Positions 7,233 through 35,884 of a DNA stretch of 64,000 nucleotides are shown here, one piece after another. The notes under the pieces are model-generated. The model saw only the letters and a list, made by a program, of their open reading frames with translations, was not told where the DNA came from and did not search any database. The translations under genes and the position numbers were made by a program. How positions within the stretch are numbered: position 1 is the stretch's first letter; each line of letters begins with the position of its first letter. This DNA is from Urechidicola croceus. Lineage in GTDB: Bacteria; Bacteroidota; Bacteroidia; Flavobacteriales; Flavobacteriaceae. The stretch is taken from the NCBI RefSeq assembly GCF_001761325.1, contig NZ_CP017478.1, positions 3,059,501-3,123,500 on the forward strand, given 5' to 3'.

Positions 7233-7946
7233 AGTCAGATAAAATTAATAACGAGTCTACGACAAAAAAAGTACCGAATTCAACACAATTTATTTATTGC
7301 TGAAGGGATTAAGGTTGTTAATGAATTATTGAATTCTAATATTAAATTAGAAACATTGTATTGTACGACTGATTTTTTAAATGATGTTTTGCCTAATATG
7401 GTTGAAATAGTTACCGAAAATGAGTTAAAAAAAATCAGTGGGTTAAAAAACCCAAATCAAGTGCTGGGCTTGTTTAAAATTCCAACGGAAAATGAAATTA
7501 ATTATTCAGAATTCACTTTAGCATTAGATGATATTAATGATCCGGGTAATTTAGGTACAATTATTCGTTTGTGTGATTGGTTTGGAATACATCAAATAGT
7601 ATGTTCAAGAAATACTGTTGATTGCTTTAATTCTAAAGTTGTGCAGTCTACAATGGGTTCTTTGTCACGTATTTCAATTAATTATACTGATTTAAAATCT
7701 TTTCTAGCCAATTCTGATTTGCCCATTTATGCTGCAATTATGGATGGTGATAATGTATATAAAACCAAATTAGAAAAGAATGCGATTTTGGTAATGGGAA
7801 ATGAAGCCAATGGAATAAGCCAAGAAATATTAGATTTAATAACTAATTCAATTGCAATTCCTAGATTTGGTGATATGCAGCAAACAGAGAGTTTGAATGT
7901 CGCAACTGCTACAGCAATTTTATTAAGTGAATTCAACAGGAATTAA
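7221..7946 (+). CDS. TrmH/SpoU-family RNA 2'-O-methyltransferase
   Basis: This is a predicted SAM-dependent methyltransferase of tRNA or 23S rRNA with the trefoil-knot SPOUT fold, 241 residues. Residues 1-95 form the substrate-binding domain (KKYRIQHNLFIAEGIKVVNE). The catalytic domain shows all three SpoU motifs: LDDINDPGNLGTIIRLCDWF (motif 1), VMGNEANGIS (motif 2) and IPRFGDMQQTESLNVATATA (motif 3). The target nucleotide cannot be told from sequence; similar proteins are usually annotated as TrmH-like or RlmB-like. It ends directly against the convergent porT gene with no space between the stop codons, so transcripts from the two strands probably overlap. It is divergent from tamL. Confidence 0.9.
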   Translation: MLSKSQIKLITSLRQKKYRIQHNLFIAEGIKVVNELLNSNIKLETLYCTTDFLNDVLPNMVEIVTENELKKISGLKNPNQVLGLFKIPTENEINYSEFTLALDDINDPGNLGTIIRLCDWFGIHQIVCSRNTVDCFNSKVVQSTMGSLSRISINYTDLKSFLANSDLPIYAAIMDGDNVYKTKLEKNAILVMGNEANGISQEILDLITNSIAIPRFGDMQQTESLNVATATAILLSEFNRN

Positions 7947-30264: not shown

Positions 30265-30672
30265 ATGAAAAAGTTTTTTAACAAAACAATATCTTTAGCA
30301 TTATCGTTGATAGTGCTTTTTTCAACTGTATCTTTTACAGTAGACAAGCATTTTTGTGGAGAACACTTAATGGATGTTGCCGTTTTTTCAGCTGCAGAAA
30401 ATTGTGGGATGGAGATGATTCAAAAGACATCTCATGAAGTTCAAGTAAAGAAAAAATCTTGTTGTAGAAATGAATTCCAAATTGTAGAAGGGAATTCTCT
30501 TGAGCAACAAGCAATTCAAAAAATGGAGTTTCCACAATTGTATTTTGTAGTTGCTTTTATTTCTTTATTTACTGAATCTTTTGATAATTCAATAGAACAA
30601 TCTTATTGCTATTATGACCCACCTCTGGTCAAAAAAGATATAACTGTACTTTTCGAAAATTTTAGAATTTGA
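30265..30672 (+). CDS. HYC_CC_PP family exported protein
   Basis: This 135-residue exported protein has a signal peptide (ISLALSLIVLFSTVSFTV). It carries the three motifs that name the family: an HYC-like DKHFCGEHL near residue 28 (Phe for Tyr), a CC pair in KKSCCRNEF near 72, and a PP pair in YCYYDPPLVK near the C-terminus. The spaced Cys and His residues suggest metal or redox binding outside the inner membrane. Function is not established. It precedes a TonB receptor and an HMA-domain protein in the same orientation, a setting that points to transition-metal (copper-like) handling. Confidence 0.85.
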   Translation: MKKFFNKTISLALSLIVLFSTVSFTVDKHFCGEHLMDVAVFSAAENCGMEMIQKTSHEVQVKKKSCCRNEFQIVEGNSLEQQAIQKMEFPQLYFVVAFISLFTESFDNSIEQSYCYYDPPLVKKDITVLFENFRI

Positions 30673-30749
30673 TTTATTAATTAAGCATTAAATACGTCTT
30701 GTATAGACGTATTCTCACTATTGTTTAATTATTAAAAAAAATCAAATAA

Positions 30750-32987
30750 ATGAAATTAAAAATCATATTTATAATATTTATTTTTTTACCGTTATGTTCA
30801 ATTGCTCAGGAAAGTTTTAGAGGAATGGTCATGATTCAAGAAAATGGTAAAATAAGCGGGCTTGAAGGAGCCACAGTCTATTGGCTAGACACAGATGTAG
30901 GTACTACAACTAATGAAAATGGATGGTATACAATTGGATATAAACCTGAGTATAAGAAATTAGTTATAAGTTTTGTAGGTTATCAAACTGATACTATTGA
31001 AGTCAATTCAAATAAGGAGTTACATCACCTTTTAAAAGAAGGAAATGAATTAGAAGCAGTTGAAATTGAAACTAAGAGAAAGTCGACATCAACTTCTTAT
31101 TTACTAACAGAAAACACTAGTAGAATAAGTAGTGAAGAACTTTTAAAAGCAGCATGTTGTAATCTATCTGAAAGTTTTGAAACCAATCCTTCTATTGATG
31201 TTAATTTTTCTGACGCTGTAACTGGTACAAAGCAAATTCAAATGTTAGGATTGAATAGTCCTTATATATTAATCGCTCAGGAAAATATTCCAACAGTTAG
31301 AGGTGCCTCACAAGCCTATGGACTTACATTTACTCCAGGCACATGGGTTGAAAGTATTCAAATAACCAAAGGTGCAGGTAGTGTTGTAAATGGTTATGAG
31401 AGTATTGCAGGTCAAATAAACGCTGAACTTGTTAAACCATTAACAGATAATAAGTTTTTCTTAAATGCTTATGGTTCTAATAATGGAAGAGTGGAATTAA
31501 ACACTCATTTTAATCAGAAATTATCAGATAAATGGAGTACAGGAATCTATTTACATGGTAATAATCGCTCTAAGAAAATAGATTCTAATGACGATAATTT
31601 TCTAGATGTTCCATTAGCAAAACAAATTAATGTGATGAATAGATGGCAGTATCAAAATGCTGAAAAAGGTTGGGTTAGTTTCTTGAATTTAAGATATTTA
31701 TCAGATGAAAAACAGGCTGGAGAAATTAATTTTGATCCAGATAGTGATAAGTTTTCGACAACCATTTGGGGGAGCGAAATCAACACTAGTAGGTTTGACG
31801 CCTCGTTAAAGTTGGGATATGTATTCCCCGAAATTCCATATCAAAGTTTTGGTTTCCAAACAGCCTTCAGTAATCACAAACAAGAATCTTATTATGGTTT
31901 AAGAACTTACGATATTGAGCATCAAAGTGTGTATTCAAGTTTATTGTTTAATTCAATAATTGGAGATACAAGAAATAAGTTTAAGACAGGGATTAATTTT
32001 ACTTATGATAAGTATAAAGAGTTTGTAAGTATAACTGATCATAGTAGGGTTGAAAATTCCATTGGAGGTTTTTTTGAATATACATTTGATGACTTAGAAA
32101 ATTTTAGTTTGATTGCTGGAATAAGGGCAGATCAACATAATAAACTTGATTTTTTTGTGACTCCTAGATTACATTTGAGATATGCTCCTTGGGAAAAAGG
32201 AGTATTAAGAGCATCTATAGGAAGAGGGAAAAGGAGTGCAAATATTTTTGCAGAAAACCAACAGTTATTTGCTTCAAATAGAAGTGTGAATATTGTTGAG
32301 AATGGAGGCGATATATATGGTCTTGAGCCAGAAGTTGCATGGAATTATGGGTTTAGTTTTTTACAAGGGTTTAATCTTTTTGATCAAAAAGGTGAAGTGA
32401 TTTTTGATTATTATAAAACAGATTTTACAAATCAAGTAGTTGTGGATTGGGAAAATTCAGAGCAGATTTCTTTTTATAATATAGAAGGAAAAAGTTTTGC
32501 AAATAGTTTTCAAACTGAATTAAGTTATAATCCATTTGGAAATTTTGATATCAAACTTTCTTATAAATATTATGATGTTCAAACTGAATATTTATCAGGG
32601 AAAAACGAAAAACCTTTAATTCCGAAACACCGATTTTTTGCAAACCTAAGTTACAATACTCAAAAGGAATCTGAGAGTTTTTGGAAATTTGATGCAACCT
32701 ATAATTTGGTTGGTAGACAACGCTTTCCTTCAACTAATGAAAGCCCATCAGAATTTCAAAGATCAGCATATTCTGAAAAAACAAATTTGTTAAATTTACA
32801 AGTAACTAAAGTTTTTTCTCGTAATTTTGAAATGTACTTAGGAGGAGAAAACATTACAAATACAACTCAAAATAATCCGATTGTATCTTCAGAAAATCCT
32901 TTTGGTTCATATTTTGATAGTACGATGATATACGCACCAATTAATGGGGCAAATTATTATTTAGGATTACGTTATAATTTAAAATGA
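30750..32987 (+). CDS. TonB-dependent outer-membrane receptor, predicted metal-linked
   Basis: This 745-residue receptor imports an unknown ligand across the outer membrane using TonB energy. It has a signal peptide (FIFLPLCSIAQ). A carboxypeptidase-like regulatory domain (about 20-100; LEGATVYWLDTDVGTTTNEN) is followed by a plug domain with QIQMLGLNSPYILIAQENIP, VESIQITKGAGSVVNGYESI and AGQINAELVKP. A 22-strand barrel ends in YYLGLRYNLK. An unusual AACCNLSESFETNPS motif starts the plug and adds a vicinal Cys pair. The gene lies between HYC_CC_PP and HMA-domain genes, overlapping the latter by 4 bases, so the ligand is probably a metal or metallophore; copper is the leading guess, unproved. 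Confidence 0.9.
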   Translation: MKLKIIFIIFIFLPLCSIAQESFRGMVMIQENGKISGLEGATVYWLDTDVGTTTNENGWYTIGYKPEYKKLVISFVGYQTDTIEVNSNKELHHLLKEGNELEAVEIETKRKSTSTSYLLTENTSRISSEELLKAACCNLSESFETNPSIDVNFSDAVTGTKQIQMLGLNSPYILIAQENIPTVRGASQAYGLTFTPGTWVESIQITKGAGSVVNGYESIAGQINAELVKPLTDNKFFLNAYGSNNGRVELNTHFNQKLSDKWSTGIYLHGNNRSKKIDSNDDNFLDVPLAKQINVMNRWQYQNAEKGWVSFLNLRYLSDEKQAGEINFDPDSDKFSTTIWGSEINTSRFDASLKLGYVFPEIPYQSFGFQTAFSNHKQESYYGLRTYDIEHQSVYSSLLFNSIIGDTRNKFKTGINFTYDKYKEFVSITDHSRVENSIGGFFEYTFDDLENFSLIAGIRADQHNKLDFFVTPRLHLRYAPWEKGVLRASIGRGKRSANIFAENQQLFASNRSVNIVENGGDIYGLEPEVAWNYGFSFLQGFNLFDQKGEVIFDYYKTDFTNQVVVDWENSEQISFYNIEGKSFANSFQTELSYNPFGNFDIKLSYKYYDVQTEYLSGKNEKPLIPKHRFFANLSYNTQKESESFWKFDATYNLVGRQRFPSTNESPSEFQRSAYSEKTNLLNLQVTKVFSRNFEMYLGGENITNTTQNNPIVSSENPFGSYFDSTMIYAPINGANYYLGLRYNLK

Positions 32988-33352
32988 GATACATGAAAAA
33001 ACTATTTTTATTTTTTGGATTAGGATTAATGACTATGTCATTATCAGCACAAAACAAAAATGCAAAAGCGCAAGTAGAAGTTGATGGAGTATGTTTAATG
33101 TGTAAAGCACGTATTGAAAAAGCAGCATTAACAACTAAAGGAGTGAAATATGTAAATTGGGATGTTGAATCGCATTTACTTTCTTTAATTTTTGATGAAA
33201 ATAAGACAAATTTAAAAGCGATTCAGGAAAATGTAGCTGCAGTAGGTCATGATACACAAGAGATACAATGCTCTATTAGTTCATATAACAATCTACATCC
33301 TTGTTGCAAATACAAAGAAGAGGAAGTGCTAGAAGATCATAAAAAAGAATAG
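32984..33352 (+). CDS. Exported heavy-metal-associated (HMA) domain protein
   Basis: This 122-residue protein has a signal peptide (LFLFFGLGLMTMSLSAQ) and one HMA (ferredoxin-like) domain. The metal-binding loop reads VDGVCLMCKARIEKAAL, a CxxC placed as in copper chaperones. The fold follows with GVKYVNWDVESHLLSLIFDE. The tail adds further potential ligands (LHPCCKYKEEEVLEDHKKE). The start is the ATGA overlap with the receptor stop at 32984, or the second ATG at 32993, which gives an equally good signal peptide. Location in the periplasm fits delivery of a metal to or from the receptor system. Confidence 0.88.
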   Translation: MRYMKKLFLFFGLGLMTMSLSAQNKNAKAQVEVDGVCLMCKARIEKAALTTKGVKYVNWDVESHLLSLIFDENKTNLKAIQENVAAVGHDTQEIQCSISSYNNLHPCCKYKEEEVLEDHKKE

Positions 33353-33370
33353 TACTACTAAAAATATTTT

Positions 33371-33402
33371 TAACCCGAACTTAACTTAAGTTCGGGTTTT
33401 TT
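33371..33402 (+). terminator. Terminator of the HYC/TonB/HMA operon
   Basis: A stem acccgaactta paired with taagttcgggt (33373-33397) is followed by a T tract (tttttt). It ends the three-gene operon 20 bases past its last stop. Confidence 0.85.
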
Positions 33403-33468
33403 CTTTGATTAAGTTAAACGTATTTATTTGTTTTCTTATCAAGAAATCCAAAGTTGTATATTTACAAT

Positions 33469-34215
33469 ATGACTTTTCCAGTAACATTTGATTTTTTTGG
33501 TAAAGAGTATAATGCTCATTTTATTTTTGAAACTTTAGCATTTTTTATTGCTTTCAGATATTACGTTTTATTGAAGAAACAAGAAGGTGATGAAATAAAG
33601 TCTATCAATAGATTAGTTATTATTTTAGGTGCAACTATTGGAGCATTAATTGGTTCAAGGTTTCTTGGAATATTAGAAAATCCAGTTGATATATTTAAAT
33701 CAAGTTTTATTGATATTTATAAAAGTAAAACAATAATTGGTGGTTTAATTGGAGGTTTGATAAGTGTCGAATTTTTTAAGAAACTATTGAAAGAAAAAAA
33801 ATCATCTGGAGATTTATTTGTTTTTCCATTGATACTTGGAATACTAATTGGGAGAGTTGGTTGTTTTTTTGCGGGAATATCTGAACCTACATACGGAATA
33901 GAAACTACTTTTTTTACAGGAATTGATTTAGGAGATGGATTACTTAGGCATCCTACAGCTTTGTATGAAATTCTATTTTTATTTACCCTATTTTTATTTT
34001 TGAAATTTATCAAATCAAAAATAAATTTTAAGAATGGAAGTCTATTCAAAATATTCATGATATTGTACTTTTTATTTAGATTTTTAATAGAGTTTGTTAA
34101 GCCAAATGGGTTTTATACAGTGGGTTTAAGTTCTATTCAAATTGCTTGTTTGCTTACATTTTTGTATTATTACAAATACATACTTCAACCAAAAAACTTA
34201 ATTGCTCATGCCTGA
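33469..34215 (+). CDS. Lgt-like prolipoprotein diacylglyceryl transferase family protein (divergent clade)
   Basis: This 248-residue polytopic membrane protein has about seven hydrophobic segments. It is recognisably Lgt-like: KTIIGGLIGGLIS (counterpart of the HGG region), ILIGRVGCFFAGISEPTYG (counterpart of the GRIGNFxNGE Lgt signature), LRHPTALYEI and YFLFRFLIEFVKP. Canonical Lgt moves diacylglyceryl from phosphatidylglycerol to the lipobox Cys. Here the catalytically implicated His of HGG is Ile, and the Asn after GRxG is Cys, so it may act on another acceptor or be a second Lgt-type enzyme. I chose the ATG at 33469 over the TTG at 33454. The next gene starts inside its last codons (8-base overlap), implying coupled translation with the radical SAM protein. 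Confidence 0.8.
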   Translation: MTFPVTFDFFGKEYNAHFIFETLAFFIAFRYYVLLKKQEGDEIKSINRLVIILGATIGALIGSRFLGILENPVDIFKSSFIDIYKSKTIIGGLIGGLISVEFFKKLLKEKKSSGDLFVFPLILGILIGRVGCFFAGISEPTYGIETTFFTGIDLGDGLLRHPTALYEILFLFTLFLFLKFIKSKINFKNGSLFKIFMILYFLFRFLIEFVKPNGFYTVGLSSIQIACLLTFLYYYKYILQPKNLIAHA

Positions 34216-35599
34216 AAGAAATTACACATACTACGATTTCACTACAAGTCTATGTGAAAAATGTTTGAGAAGGGTAGATGCTAAAATTATTTTTCAAGAA
34301 GAAAAAGTTTATATGTTGAAGCGTTGTCCTGATCATGGTTATTCTAAAGTTTTAATTGCTGATGATATAGAATATTATAAACAAATCAGAAATTATAACA
34401 AAGTGTCGGAAATGCCCTTAAAATTCAATACTAAAACAGATTATGGTTGCCCTTATGATTGTGGCTTGTGTTCAGATCATGAACAACATTCATGCTTGAC
34501 TGTTATTGAAGTTACCGATAGATGTAACTTGACTTGTCCAACTTGCTATGCAGGTTCTTCACCACATTTTGGTAGACATAGAACTCTTGAAGAAGTTGAA
34601 AAAATGTTGGATACAATAGTTGAAAATGAAGGAGAGCCTGATGTGGTTCAACTAAGTGGAGGTGAGCCAACAATTCATCCTCAGTTTTTTGAAATATTGG
34701 ATTTGGCAAAATCTAAACCAATAAAGCATTTGATGCTCAATACGAATGGAGTTCGTATTGCAAAAGATAAAGAGTTTGTCAAGCGTCTAGCATCATATCA
34801 ACCAGATTTTGAAATATATTTACAGTTTGATTCCTTTAAACCAGAAGTTTTAGAATCTCTAAGAGGTAAAGATTTGTTGGAAGTTAGAAGAAAAGCAATT
34901 GAAAATTTAAATGAAGTTAACTTATCAACAACACTTGTAATTACTTTGCAAAAAGGGTTTAATGATGATGAAATTGGGAAGATAATTGAATATGCTTTGA
35001 AACAAAAATGCGTTCGAGGTGTAACTTTTCAGCCAACTCAAATAGCAGGGCGTTTAGATAATTTTAATTCTGAAACTGATAGAATAACCTTAACAGAAGT
35101 TCGACGTAAAATTTTAGAACAAGCACCAATTTTTAATTCTGATGATTTGATTCCAGTTCCTTGTAATCCGGATGCTTTAGTCATGGGTTATGTATTGAAA
35201 ATTGATAATGAAGTATTTCCGTTGACAAGGTATATCAATCCAGAAGATTTATTAAACAATTCTAAAAACACTATTATATATGAACAGGATGAAAAGTTGC
35301 ATAAACATATGTTGAATTTGTTTAGTACAGGTAATTCCGTTGAAACTGCACAAGAAGAATTACATTCAATATTGTGTTGTTTACCTCAGATTGAAGCGCC
35401 AAATTTGACCTATGATAATTTATTTAGAATTATCATTATGCAATTTGTAGACGCCTATAATTTTGATGTAAGAGCAATTAAGAAATCTTGTGTTCATATA
35501 GTAAACAAAGATTATAAAATCATTCCATTTGAAACTATGAATTTGTTTTATAGAGATGATAAAGTAGAGCGTTTAGAAGAACTAAAAAAAATGAATTAG
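34208..35599 (+). CDS. Radical SAM protein of the MJ0619 / tetraether-synthase-like (COG1964) family
   Basis: This is a predicted radical SAM enzyme of 463 residues. Cys106-Cys110-Cys113 (TDRCNLTCPTCYA) form the canonical CxxxCxxC that binds the SAM-reducing cluster, with LSGGEPTIHPQFFE near 152-165. Before it lie extra cysteine sets: CEKC at 16/19 with Cys40 (KRCPDHG), and YGCPYDCGLC at 81/85/88 with Cys96. This pattern is that of the archaeal MJ0619/Tes group, where auxiliary iron sites assist C-C bond formation between lipid tails. The C-terminal KKSCVHIVN followed by IIPFETMNLFYRD is also family-like. Start is the ATG at 34208, overlapping the Lgt-like gene by 8 bases. The substrate is unknown; a lipid or lipid-modified protein is inferred from context. 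Confidence 0.85.
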   Translation: MPERNYTYYDFTTSLCEKCLRRVDAKIIFQEEKVYMLKRCPDHGYSKVLIADDIEYYKQIRNYNKVSEMPLKFNTKTDYGCPYDCGLCSDHEQHSCLTVIEVTDRCNLTCPTCYAGSSPHFGRHRTLEEVEKMLDTIVENEGEPDVVQLSGGEPTIHPQFFEILDLAKSKPIKHLMLNTNGVRIAKDKEFVKRLASYQPDFEIYLQFDSFKPEVLESLRGKDLLEVRRKAIENLNEVNLSTTLVITLQKGFNDDEIGKIIEYALKQKCVRGVTFQPTQIAGRLDNFNSETDRITLTEVRRKILEQAPIFNSDDLIPVPCNPDALVMGYVLKIDNEVFPLTRYINPEDLLNNSKNTIIYEQDEKLHKHMLNLFSTGNSVETAQEELHSILCCLPQIEAPNLTYDNLFRIIIMQFVDAYNFDVRAIKKSCVHIVNKDYKIIPFETMNLFYRDDKVERLEELKKMN

Positions 35600-35600
35600 C

Positions 35601-35819
35601 ATGGGAGCACTGTTGTTATTAATACCTTTGGCATTAGTTATTTTCGGATTGGTGAAACTTCTTTCGGGAAATAAAAAAATTAAGACATACAATTCAGATA
35701 CAGAAGAATATAAAAAAGGAATGAAGGATTTGGAAATAGGGATAAACACTTTTATAGTTATTTCAGTACTATTAATTATTGGTTTTTCAATGTGTTTTGG
35801 TCTCTTGGCTGGGTTTTAA
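35601..35819 (+). CDS. Small two-helix membrane protein downstream of the radical SAM gene
   Basis: This 72-residue protein has two hydrophobic segments (GALLLLIPLALVIFGLVKLL and FIVISVLLIIGFSMCFGLLA) joined by a charged loop (SGNKKIKTYNSDTEEYKKGM). It starts 1 base after the radical SAM stop, so it is almost certainly translated with it. I do not recognise a family. It could anchor or regulate the two enzymes upstream. A terminator follows immediately and closes the three-gene unit. Confidence 0.75.
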   Translation: MGALLLLIPLALVIFGLVKLLSGNKKIKTYNSDTEEYKKGMKDLEIGINTFIVISVLLIIGFSMCFGLLAGF

Positions 35820-35828
35820 AAATAAAAT

Positions 35829-35859
35829 AAAAAAGCTCCGAAATTCGGAGCTTTTTTAT
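35829..35859. terminator. Bidirectional terminator between the Lgt-like unit and groL
   Basis: A stem agctccgaa/ttcggagct (35834-35852) is flanked by A and T tracts and sits between two convergent transcription units. Confidence 0.85.
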
Positions 35860-35884
35860 TGTGAGATAATATCTCAATATTTTA

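Follow-up and report, generated by a model that had tools for sequence, protein, structure and literature searches.

The stretch of DNA analyzed here (the window, 64,000 nucleotides long) covers positions 3059501 to 3123500 of the 3.43-Mb genome of Urechidicola croceus, a member of the Flavobacteriaceae. Three genes on its + strand form a tight unit. The first (33469 to 34215, from ATG to TGA) encodes an Lgt-like transferase of 248 amino acids, recognized by Pfam LGT, fold, and alignment; we took the ATG at 33469 as its start, the open reading frame (ORF) as listed beginning at a TTG at 33454. The second ORF (34208 to 35599, ATG start) overlaps the first by 8 bases and encodes a radical S-adenosylmethionine (SAM) enzyme of 463 amino acids related to Tes and TrsS, as judged by NCBIfam, sequence, and fold matches. 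One base past its stop lies the ATG (35601) of the third gene (35601 to 35819), which by its ORF and by comparative evidence codes for a two-helix small membrane protein (SMP) of 72 amino acids, the presumed substrate. Its codon 65 (35793 to 35795, + strand) specifies a cysteine that is shared by 72 aligned SMPs, falls at a predicted periplasmic helix end, and would be the lipidation site. We propose, giving the idea an even chance, that the three genes constitute a dedicated protein lipidation system in which the Lgt-like protein would attach a glycerolipid to the SMP cysteine, while the radical SAM enzyme would tailor either the lipid or the peptide.

A terminator-like hairpin lies on each side of the unit, the terminator scan having returned 2 hairpins against 0.5 expected in shuffles. 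The upstream one (33372 to 33398, + strand; 12 pairs, 5 of them G-C, followed by a T tail) separates the cassette from the preceding block, which ends with a gene for an HMA protein. The downstream one (35826 to 35860, listed on the - strand; 16 pairs, loop of 3) closes the unit, and a convergent gene that looks like groEL by eye shares it; on the + strand, the T run is the end of the stem itself. An earlier sequence-only reading of this locus had described the 8-base overlap, the SMP start 1 base later, and the closing terminator, and all of these are present; the upstream hairpin had not been mentioned there.

We analyzed the distribution of the two enzymes in one draw of 395 genomes from the host phylum, Bacteroidota, accepting E values up to 1e-40 for the radical SAM profile and up to 1e-30 for the Lgt-like profile. 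The radical SAM enzyme was found in 34 genomes and the Lgt-like protein in 32, with 31 genomes harboring both, compared to about 2.8 shared genomes expected if the two were independent and relatedness is ignored. The pairing is thus far beyond chance, and the conserved co-occurrence of the two genes, which the sequence-only reading had named as a check on itself, holds in 31 of the 34 genomes positive for the radical SAM enzyme. The three remaining genomes all gave weak radical SAM matches (E values of 1e-50 to 1e-61), and one of them, G242, has a weaker Lgt-like gene adjacent (locus L116). Among the 66 strong loci first gathered, in which some species appear twice, 64 carry the Lgt-like gene on the same strand within the stretch read; a different contig carries it in the genomes of L075 and L078 and in G414 and G180. 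Furthermore, the two enzymes have correlated protein distances (Mantel r of 0.85 over 62 loci, reached in 0 of 2,000 permutations). In the host family, an intact radical SAM gene was present in 19 of 149 genomes. Genome G072 has broken pieces of it (L023, G072:C7:758594-758975), where the gene is interrupted by stops, a sign of cassette loss. One same-genus relative of the host, among the matches listed, has a distant radical SAM match only.

The third gene was examined in two ways. Small same-strand ORFs downstream of the radical SAM gene were selected by hydrophobicity, the cysteine playing no part in the choice. A cysteine was present in 101 of these 105 ORFs and fell within the last 30 residues in 97, in a set that includes redundant loci and some spurious-looking ORFs, with and without cysteine. 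The eight exceptions comprise L059 and L060, where the cysteine is 33 residues from the end, one truncated copy at L070, one cysteine-less copy at L069, and four ORFs that look unrelated (L008, L038, L044, and L053). With a cysteine-based rule, which requires a cysteine after a hydrophobic stretch, 70 of 86 non-redundant loci, some of them related to one another, had an SMP immediately following the radical SAM gene, compared to 1 of 263 other large ORFs in the same loci. Inspection by eye, which was not blind, located an SMP in 13 of the 16 loci missed by the rule: between the two enzymes in L125 and L177 to L180, after the Lgt-like gene in L112 to L114, and farther downstream or narrowly failing the rule in L056, L070, L071, L074, and L127. 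Within 700 bases, 75 of the 86 loci hold one to four SMP copies.

We then aligned 72 SMPs, namely, 66 of the 86 representatives and 6 sequences added by hand. The mean column identity was 15%, and Cys65 was the sole invariant column, an invariance that is partly by construction since most rows had been picked with the cysteine rule. A recurrent pattern surrounds this cysteine: in 106 distinct contexts, position -4 is G or S in 102, position -2 is G, S, or A in 96, and position -1 is I, T, or V in 77. Lysine and arginine average 3.51 before the helix and 0.26 after the cysteine, with 71 of the 72 proteins biased in this direction and 1 equal. The shared cysteine is accordingly predicted to sit at the periplasmic end of a helix running from inside to outside. 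No Pfam or NCBIfam family fits most SMPs, the weak matches being scattered and covering no more than 8 of 72 proteins (DUF4064, best E value of 1.8e-5), and we therefore dropped the idea that SMPs belong to a named family. The SMP profile is too weak to tell whether the host genome encodes further members. Short, divergent, often in tandem, adjacent to a modifying enzyme, and with one conserved core residue, SMPs look like the precursors of ribosomally synthesized and posttranslationally modified peptides (RiPPs); at the same time, they resemble lipoproteins in that, judged by charge, the cysteine stands where an in-to-out helix, with positive charges before it, reaches the outside. The sequence-only reading had treated the third gene as an accessory, but the comparison of its relatives suggests that the SMP is the substrate.

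The Lgt-like protein falls in Pfam LGT (PF01790) with 89.7 bits against a cut-off of 24.9 and stays below the NCBIfam equivalog cut-offs for Lgt (TIGR00544, 46.4 against 118.9; NF000778, 53.1 against 334). Its structure model (predicted local distance difference test [pLDDT] score of 86.8) matched Escherichia coli Lgt (5azb) with an E value of 5e-7 and a template modeling (TM) score of 0.59, the only fold match with an E value below 0.001. Kinship with Lgt, as initially claimed, is thereby upheld. According to the available excerpts of PMC13251419, the essential residues of E. coli Lgt include Y26, H103, R143, N146, G154, and R239; the two arginines position the phospholipid (see also PMC4728403), and H103 is linked, together with the head domain, to the choice of the protein substrate. 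The equivalents of the two arginines (R129 and R204) are kept in all 63 aligned Bacteroidota Lgt-like proteins and are also present in the five presumed Pseudomonadota and two Actinomycetota rows aligned. The RHP..LYE motif is retained too. The position of N146 is occupied by a cysteine in 63 of 63 Bacteroidota proteins (C132 in the window protein) and that of Y26 by a histidine in 63 of 63 (H17 in the window); L112 and L114 have a tyrosine in the latter column. The histidine of the HGG motif (H103) is Ile90 in the window protein, exactly as the sequence-only reading had stated. No row shown has a histidine at this position: the main Bacteroidota rows carry Ile, Met, Val, or Leu, and some more distant ones carry Thr, Ala, or Glu. 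The periplasmic head loop is shortened in the alignment. Read plainly, these residues point to a protein in which the phospholipid arginines are retained and the acceptor side is altered. A separate canonical Lgt, with YYG, SHG, R.GN, and VRF motifs, is encoded at 943234 to 944124 of the host genome; the Lgt-like protein is thus not the only Lgt of the host, and we dropped the idea that it is the housekeeping enzyme, a role that had been doubted from the start. In locus L176 (genome G165), the conserved histidine in the first transmembrane helix of the Lgt-like protein is apparently changed, and no adjacent SMP was seen by eye.

In the radical SAM protein, Pfam recognized a Radical_SAM domain and an HMPTM zinc ribbon, HMPTM being an older name for the MJ0619 group. 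The two top NCBIfam models were TrsS (337.2 bits, spanning residues 14 to 452 of 465) and Tes (292.3 bits). The closest solved structure was GDGT-MAS (7tol/7tom), with an E value of 3e-70 by sequence and 3e-81 with a profile. A fold match to 7tom was also obtained (E value of 9e-32, TM score of 0.75), from a model whose mean pLDDT is 70 and whose C-terminal cluster domain is poor; the structural resemblance to Tes that the sequence-only reading had staked itself on is therefore present, within the limits of that model. Counting from the ATG at 34208, a rubredoxin-like site is formed by C16-x2-C19-x20-C40-x2-H43, an N-terminal iron-sulfur cluster motif by C81-x3-C85-x2-C88 with H91, and the radical SAM motif CX3CX2C by C106-x3-C110-x2-C113, with C96 as a further cysteine; the cysteine layout originally described (C16/C19/C40, C81/C85/C88/C96, and C106/C110/C113) was thus correctly read. 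The C-terminal set consists of C319, C390, C391, and C428. The metal-motif spacings reported for GDGT-MAS in the part of PMC9433317 available are those of the window enzyme, and the equivalent of Tes Met439 is present in 17 main Bacteroidota rows. In four distant relatives (L116, L204, L205, and L214), the N-terminal cluster motif is absent.

The pairing extends to other lineages. Of 299 genomes that belong to the same phylum as a Porticoccaceae genome (presumably Pseudomonadota), 8 have the radical SAM enzyme, and a same-strand Lgt-like gene lies nearby at all 8 loci, one gene separating the two at L206. Five of these loci (L206, L207, L210, L211, and L212) encode small membrane proteins that carry a [GS]-x-C motif, the one at L207 being judged by eye inside a longer frame. 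There the motif ends the first helix, which is again expected to run from inside to outside. The enzyme pair was also found in three Actinomycetota records, in two of which it is accompanied by small proteins with a similar cysteine motif. These two are plasmids of Mycobacterium avium and Mycobacterium branderi with the order Lgt-like gene, two small proteins, and radical SAM gene (the M. branderi Lgt-like gene being taken from annotation); the four small proteins have a terminal hydrophobic stretch and the motif x-G-x-C-T-G-L-N-P near the C terminus. The third, from Nonomuraea, is filed as a plasmid but, at 11.85 Mb, is evidently a chromosome; no SMP was found in this record beside the enzyme pair. 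In Bacteroidota, a Persicobacter plasmid carries the full set of cassette genes. Farther relatives of the radical SAM enzyme, from haloarchaea and Mycobacterium vanbaalenii, adjoin a methyltransferase gene instead of an Lgt-like one, as in the plasmid-borne loci L202, L203, L215, and L216 (the last two by annotation only). Together with L115 and L117, these four served as a contrast set with no Lgt-like gene in the stretch read. In a tree of 38 enzymes, which was midpoint rooted and to which long-branch warnings apply, the 32 that are linked to an Lgt-like gene or share a genome with one fall on one side of a branch with support of 90/82.

The cassette, the co-occurrence of its genes, the residue patterns, the shared cysteine, and the topology predicted from charge are observations; from them we infer the lipidation, its donor, the order of the steps, and the radical chemistry. 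In the inserted SMP, the last helix would cross from the cytoplasm to the periplasm, with the conserved cysteine at its end. The active site of the Lgt-like protein would face the periplasm, as in Lgt. With a phospholipid as donor, probably phosphatidylglycerol, the Lgt-like protein would transfer a glycerolipid to this cysteine as a thioether, without a canonical lipobox and presumably without signal peptide cleavage. That the SMP cysteine is what the Lgt-like protein modifies has, in our view, slightly better than an even chance. The radical SAM enzyme would be on the cytoplasmic side and would most likely act on acyl chains by forming a C-C (or C-S) bond, with either the donor phospholipid ahead of transfer or chains accessible from the inner leaflet as its target; the topology favors the enzyme acting first, on the phospholipid, from the cytoplasmic side. 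The SMP would then end up on a joined, possibly membrane-spanning, lipid. We hold the action of the radical SAM enzyme on lipid chains only tentatively, the balance being against it. The sequence-only reading had the unit build or modify an unusual lipid or lipid anchor; comparison of the SMPs moves this toward the lipidation of a dedicated membrane protein.

Several points weigh against this model. On the side of the Lgt-like protein, three residues essential in E. coli Lgt, Y26, H103, and N146, are all changed. The excerpts of PMC13251419 provide two precedents: MSMEG_5408, a second mycobacterial Lgt, has both Y26H and N146C and is presumed to have low Lgt activity, and the Leptospira interrogans Lgt with N146C restores the cell morphology of E. 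coli but its viability only poorly. In view of these, the residue changes neither prove nor exclude activity. The lipobox of lipoproteins follows the pattern [LVI][ASTVI][GAS]C, which is matched by 0 of the 72 SMPs. An SMP was not seen near the enzymes in 3 of the 86 loci (L034, L078, and L122), and none was found at the presumed Pseudomonadota loci L208, L209, and L213 or at L205. At L069, a second SMP-like copy (7626 to 7895) has a last helix without the terminal cysteine and may be a decayed or a regulatory copy, and genome G165 has an Lgt-like gene but, alone among those surveyed, no radical SAM match.

The radical SAM enzyme raises difficulties of its own. Its scores fall short of the equivalog cut-offs of TrsS (NF045646, 490) and Tes (NF045702, 450). 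Tes Tyr459 is replaced by Ile in 17 Bacteroidota rows; this tyrosine is conserved in 1,000 archaeal Tes homologs, and the variants Y459F and Y459L remain active (PMC9433317, in the part available). Additionally, C96, C319, C390, and C391 are conserved among the Bacteroidota members and have no counterpart in Tes, the alignments being weak around C390 and C391, which indicates that the C-terminal cluster is probably bound differently than in Tes. The kinship with Tes proposed at the outset thus stands insofar as GDGT-MAS is the best match by both sequence and fold, but the unreached cut-offs and the different C-terminal cysteine set speak against equating the two, and we take the window enzyme as a separate branch of the Tes/TrsS superfamily. 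Finally, the membrane would lie between a soluble enzyme in the cytoplasm and a cysteine in the periplasm, so that direct sequential action of the two enzymes on the SMP needs an extra assumption.

In a first alternative, the radical SAM enzyme would modify the SMP peptide itself, by RiPP-like chemistry near the conserved cysteine and before insertion, with the Lgt-like protein then anchoring the product, as in a dedicated relative of the DAG-RiPPs. A radical SAM enzyme accompanied by small, divergent proteins, often in tandem, is a typical RiPP layout, and the SMPs are arranged in just this manner. Furthermore, in two of the four cases in which the Lgt-like gene is elsewhere (L075 and L119), the SMPs still accompany the radical SAM gene, and SkfB, a RiPP maturase, ranks second to GDGT-MAS among the solved folds. 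Lipidated RiPPs that use housekeeping lipoprotein enzymes provide a precedent (PMC12636315, in excerpt). However, the other two unlinked cases (L078 and L122) showed no SMP next to the radical SAM gene, and no leader-core pattern was noticed, a peptide-recognition domain having been sought with Pfam and NCBIfam only and no dedicated search for leader or recognition elements having been made. The region that would be modified is a membrane helix, and the best match of the enzyme by fold and sequence is a lipid enzyme. We consider this explanation unlikely.

Alternatively, and closer to the view of the sequence-only reading, both enzymes could make an unusual free membrane lipid, with the SMPs as scaffold or regulatory subunits. 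Tes works on free phospholipids (PMC9433317), and bacterial Tes homologs have already been suspected in the synthesis of membrane-spanning lipids (PMC8941075), as far as the available parts of these sources go. This would nevertheless leave the single kept cysteine of otherwise divergent SMPs and their tandem copies unexplained, as well as the Lgt fold, for which a protein thiol is the known acceptor, and it appears quite unlikely to us. Very unlikely is a membrane redox or metal complex of the three proteins, with the Lgt-like protein inactive as a transferase and the SMP cysteine as ligand or thiol: the changes at H103, N146, and Y26, the need of radical SAM enzymes for electrons, and the HMA-domain metal-binding gene just upstream in the window, though behind a terminator-like hairpin, would fit it, but the phospholipid arginines and the RHP..LYE motif are kept, and no such metal gene is among the 25 largest neighbor clusters listed for 95 loci.

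That clustering of neighbors placed the radical SAM gene in 94 of the 95 loci and the Lgt-like gene in 87, besides two SMP groups, antisense ORFs, and neighbors shared at the level of lineages. A fourth conserved gene was rejected, as the largest other non-antisense cluster occurs in only 15 of the 95 loci and on the opposite strand. The distant cassettes L112 to L114 harbor, between the radical SAM gene and the Lgt-like gene, a gene for an ICMT/PEMT-family methyltransferase and a DUF4395 gene (L112, 8366 to 10617; L113, 8383 to 10588; L114, 4784 to 6941), assigned by Pfam in L112 and L114 and by eye in L113. Predicted lipoproteins that look similar by eye are encoded directly 5' of the Lgt-like gene at L127 (4581 to 5225) and L074 (4469 to 5104). 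In the window, the block upstream of the cassette (30265 to 33352) encodes an HYC_CC_PP family protein, a large ORF resembling a TonB-dependent receptor by eye, and the HMA metal-binding protein, and it probably handles metal. A role in defense was discarded: of the defense models, only those for viperin match the radical SAM enzyme, over its core alone (48 to 49 bits, residues 101 to 244), and the other two proteins gave no defense match. The same holds for a phage or viral origin, since there was no phage match and, among 24 stretches of viral contigs that fit one of two short patterns, none encodes a relative.

Returning to protein lipidation, the broadest form of our proposal is a cross-phylum system in which the radical SAM enzyme would join or functionalize acyl chains and the Lgt paralog would load the resulting lipid, possibly a membrane-spanning one, on the helix-end cysteine of diversifying SMPs, without lipobox or signal peptide cleavage. 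Taken in all its parts, this is on the unlikely side. If true, bacteria of at least two phyla, three by presumed assignment, would have a second protein lipidation route that serves substrates of its own. It would also affect how bacterial Tes homologs are counted. These are considered possible makers of branched glycerol dialkyl glycerol tetraethers (brGDGTs), lipids used in climate proxies (PMC8941075 and PMC11868695, in excerpt); some of them may belong to a different kind of operon, and their gene neighbors should set them apart from brGDGT makers. The available excerpts of the two papers mention neither Lgt nor small-protein neighbors of Tes homologs, and a search of the open literature, with most subscription journals outside it, returned no description of the pairing.

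Compared to known systems, the cassette works like a lipoprotein-forming one in outline, as far as its sequences suggest, yet departs from it in the lipobox and in three Lgt residues. With Lgt itself (PF01790; 5azb), the Lgt-like protein shares the fold, the equivalents of R143 and R239, the RHP..LYE motif, and, presumably, a periplasmic active side; it differs in the changed H103, in N146C and Y26H (the latter two in the Bacteroidota core), in its shorter head loop and sub-cut-off NCBIfam scores, in a presumed acceptor that is a helix-end cysteine without lipobox, and in coexisting with a canonical Lgt in the same genome. MSMEG_5408 has the same two changes, Y26H and N146C, a likeness taken from PMC13251419 (in excerpt) only. 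With Tes/GDGT-MAS (NF045702; MJ0619, 7tol), the radical SAM enzyme has in common the metal motifs, the Met439 equivalent, and the overall fold, whereas its 292 bits against 450, the replacement of Tyr459 by Ile, the extra cysteines, and the partnership with an Lgt-like protein and SMPs distinguish it. The TrsS radical SAM (seleno)protein (NF045646) is the highest-scoring NCBIfam model, but at 337 against 490 bits; TrsS is merely listed in the part of PMC13188914 available. DAG-RiPPs, or RiPP-lipoprotein hybrids, likewise combine a small encoded peptide beside a modifying enzyme with lipidation of a cysteine, which in our case is a proposal; according to the excerpts of PMC12636315, these hybrids depend on the general lipoprotein pathway, with an N-terminal lipoprotein signal and an MNIO enzyme. 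In their place, the cassette described here has a dedicated Lgt paralog, a radical SAM enzyme, and small membrane proteins without a lipobox.

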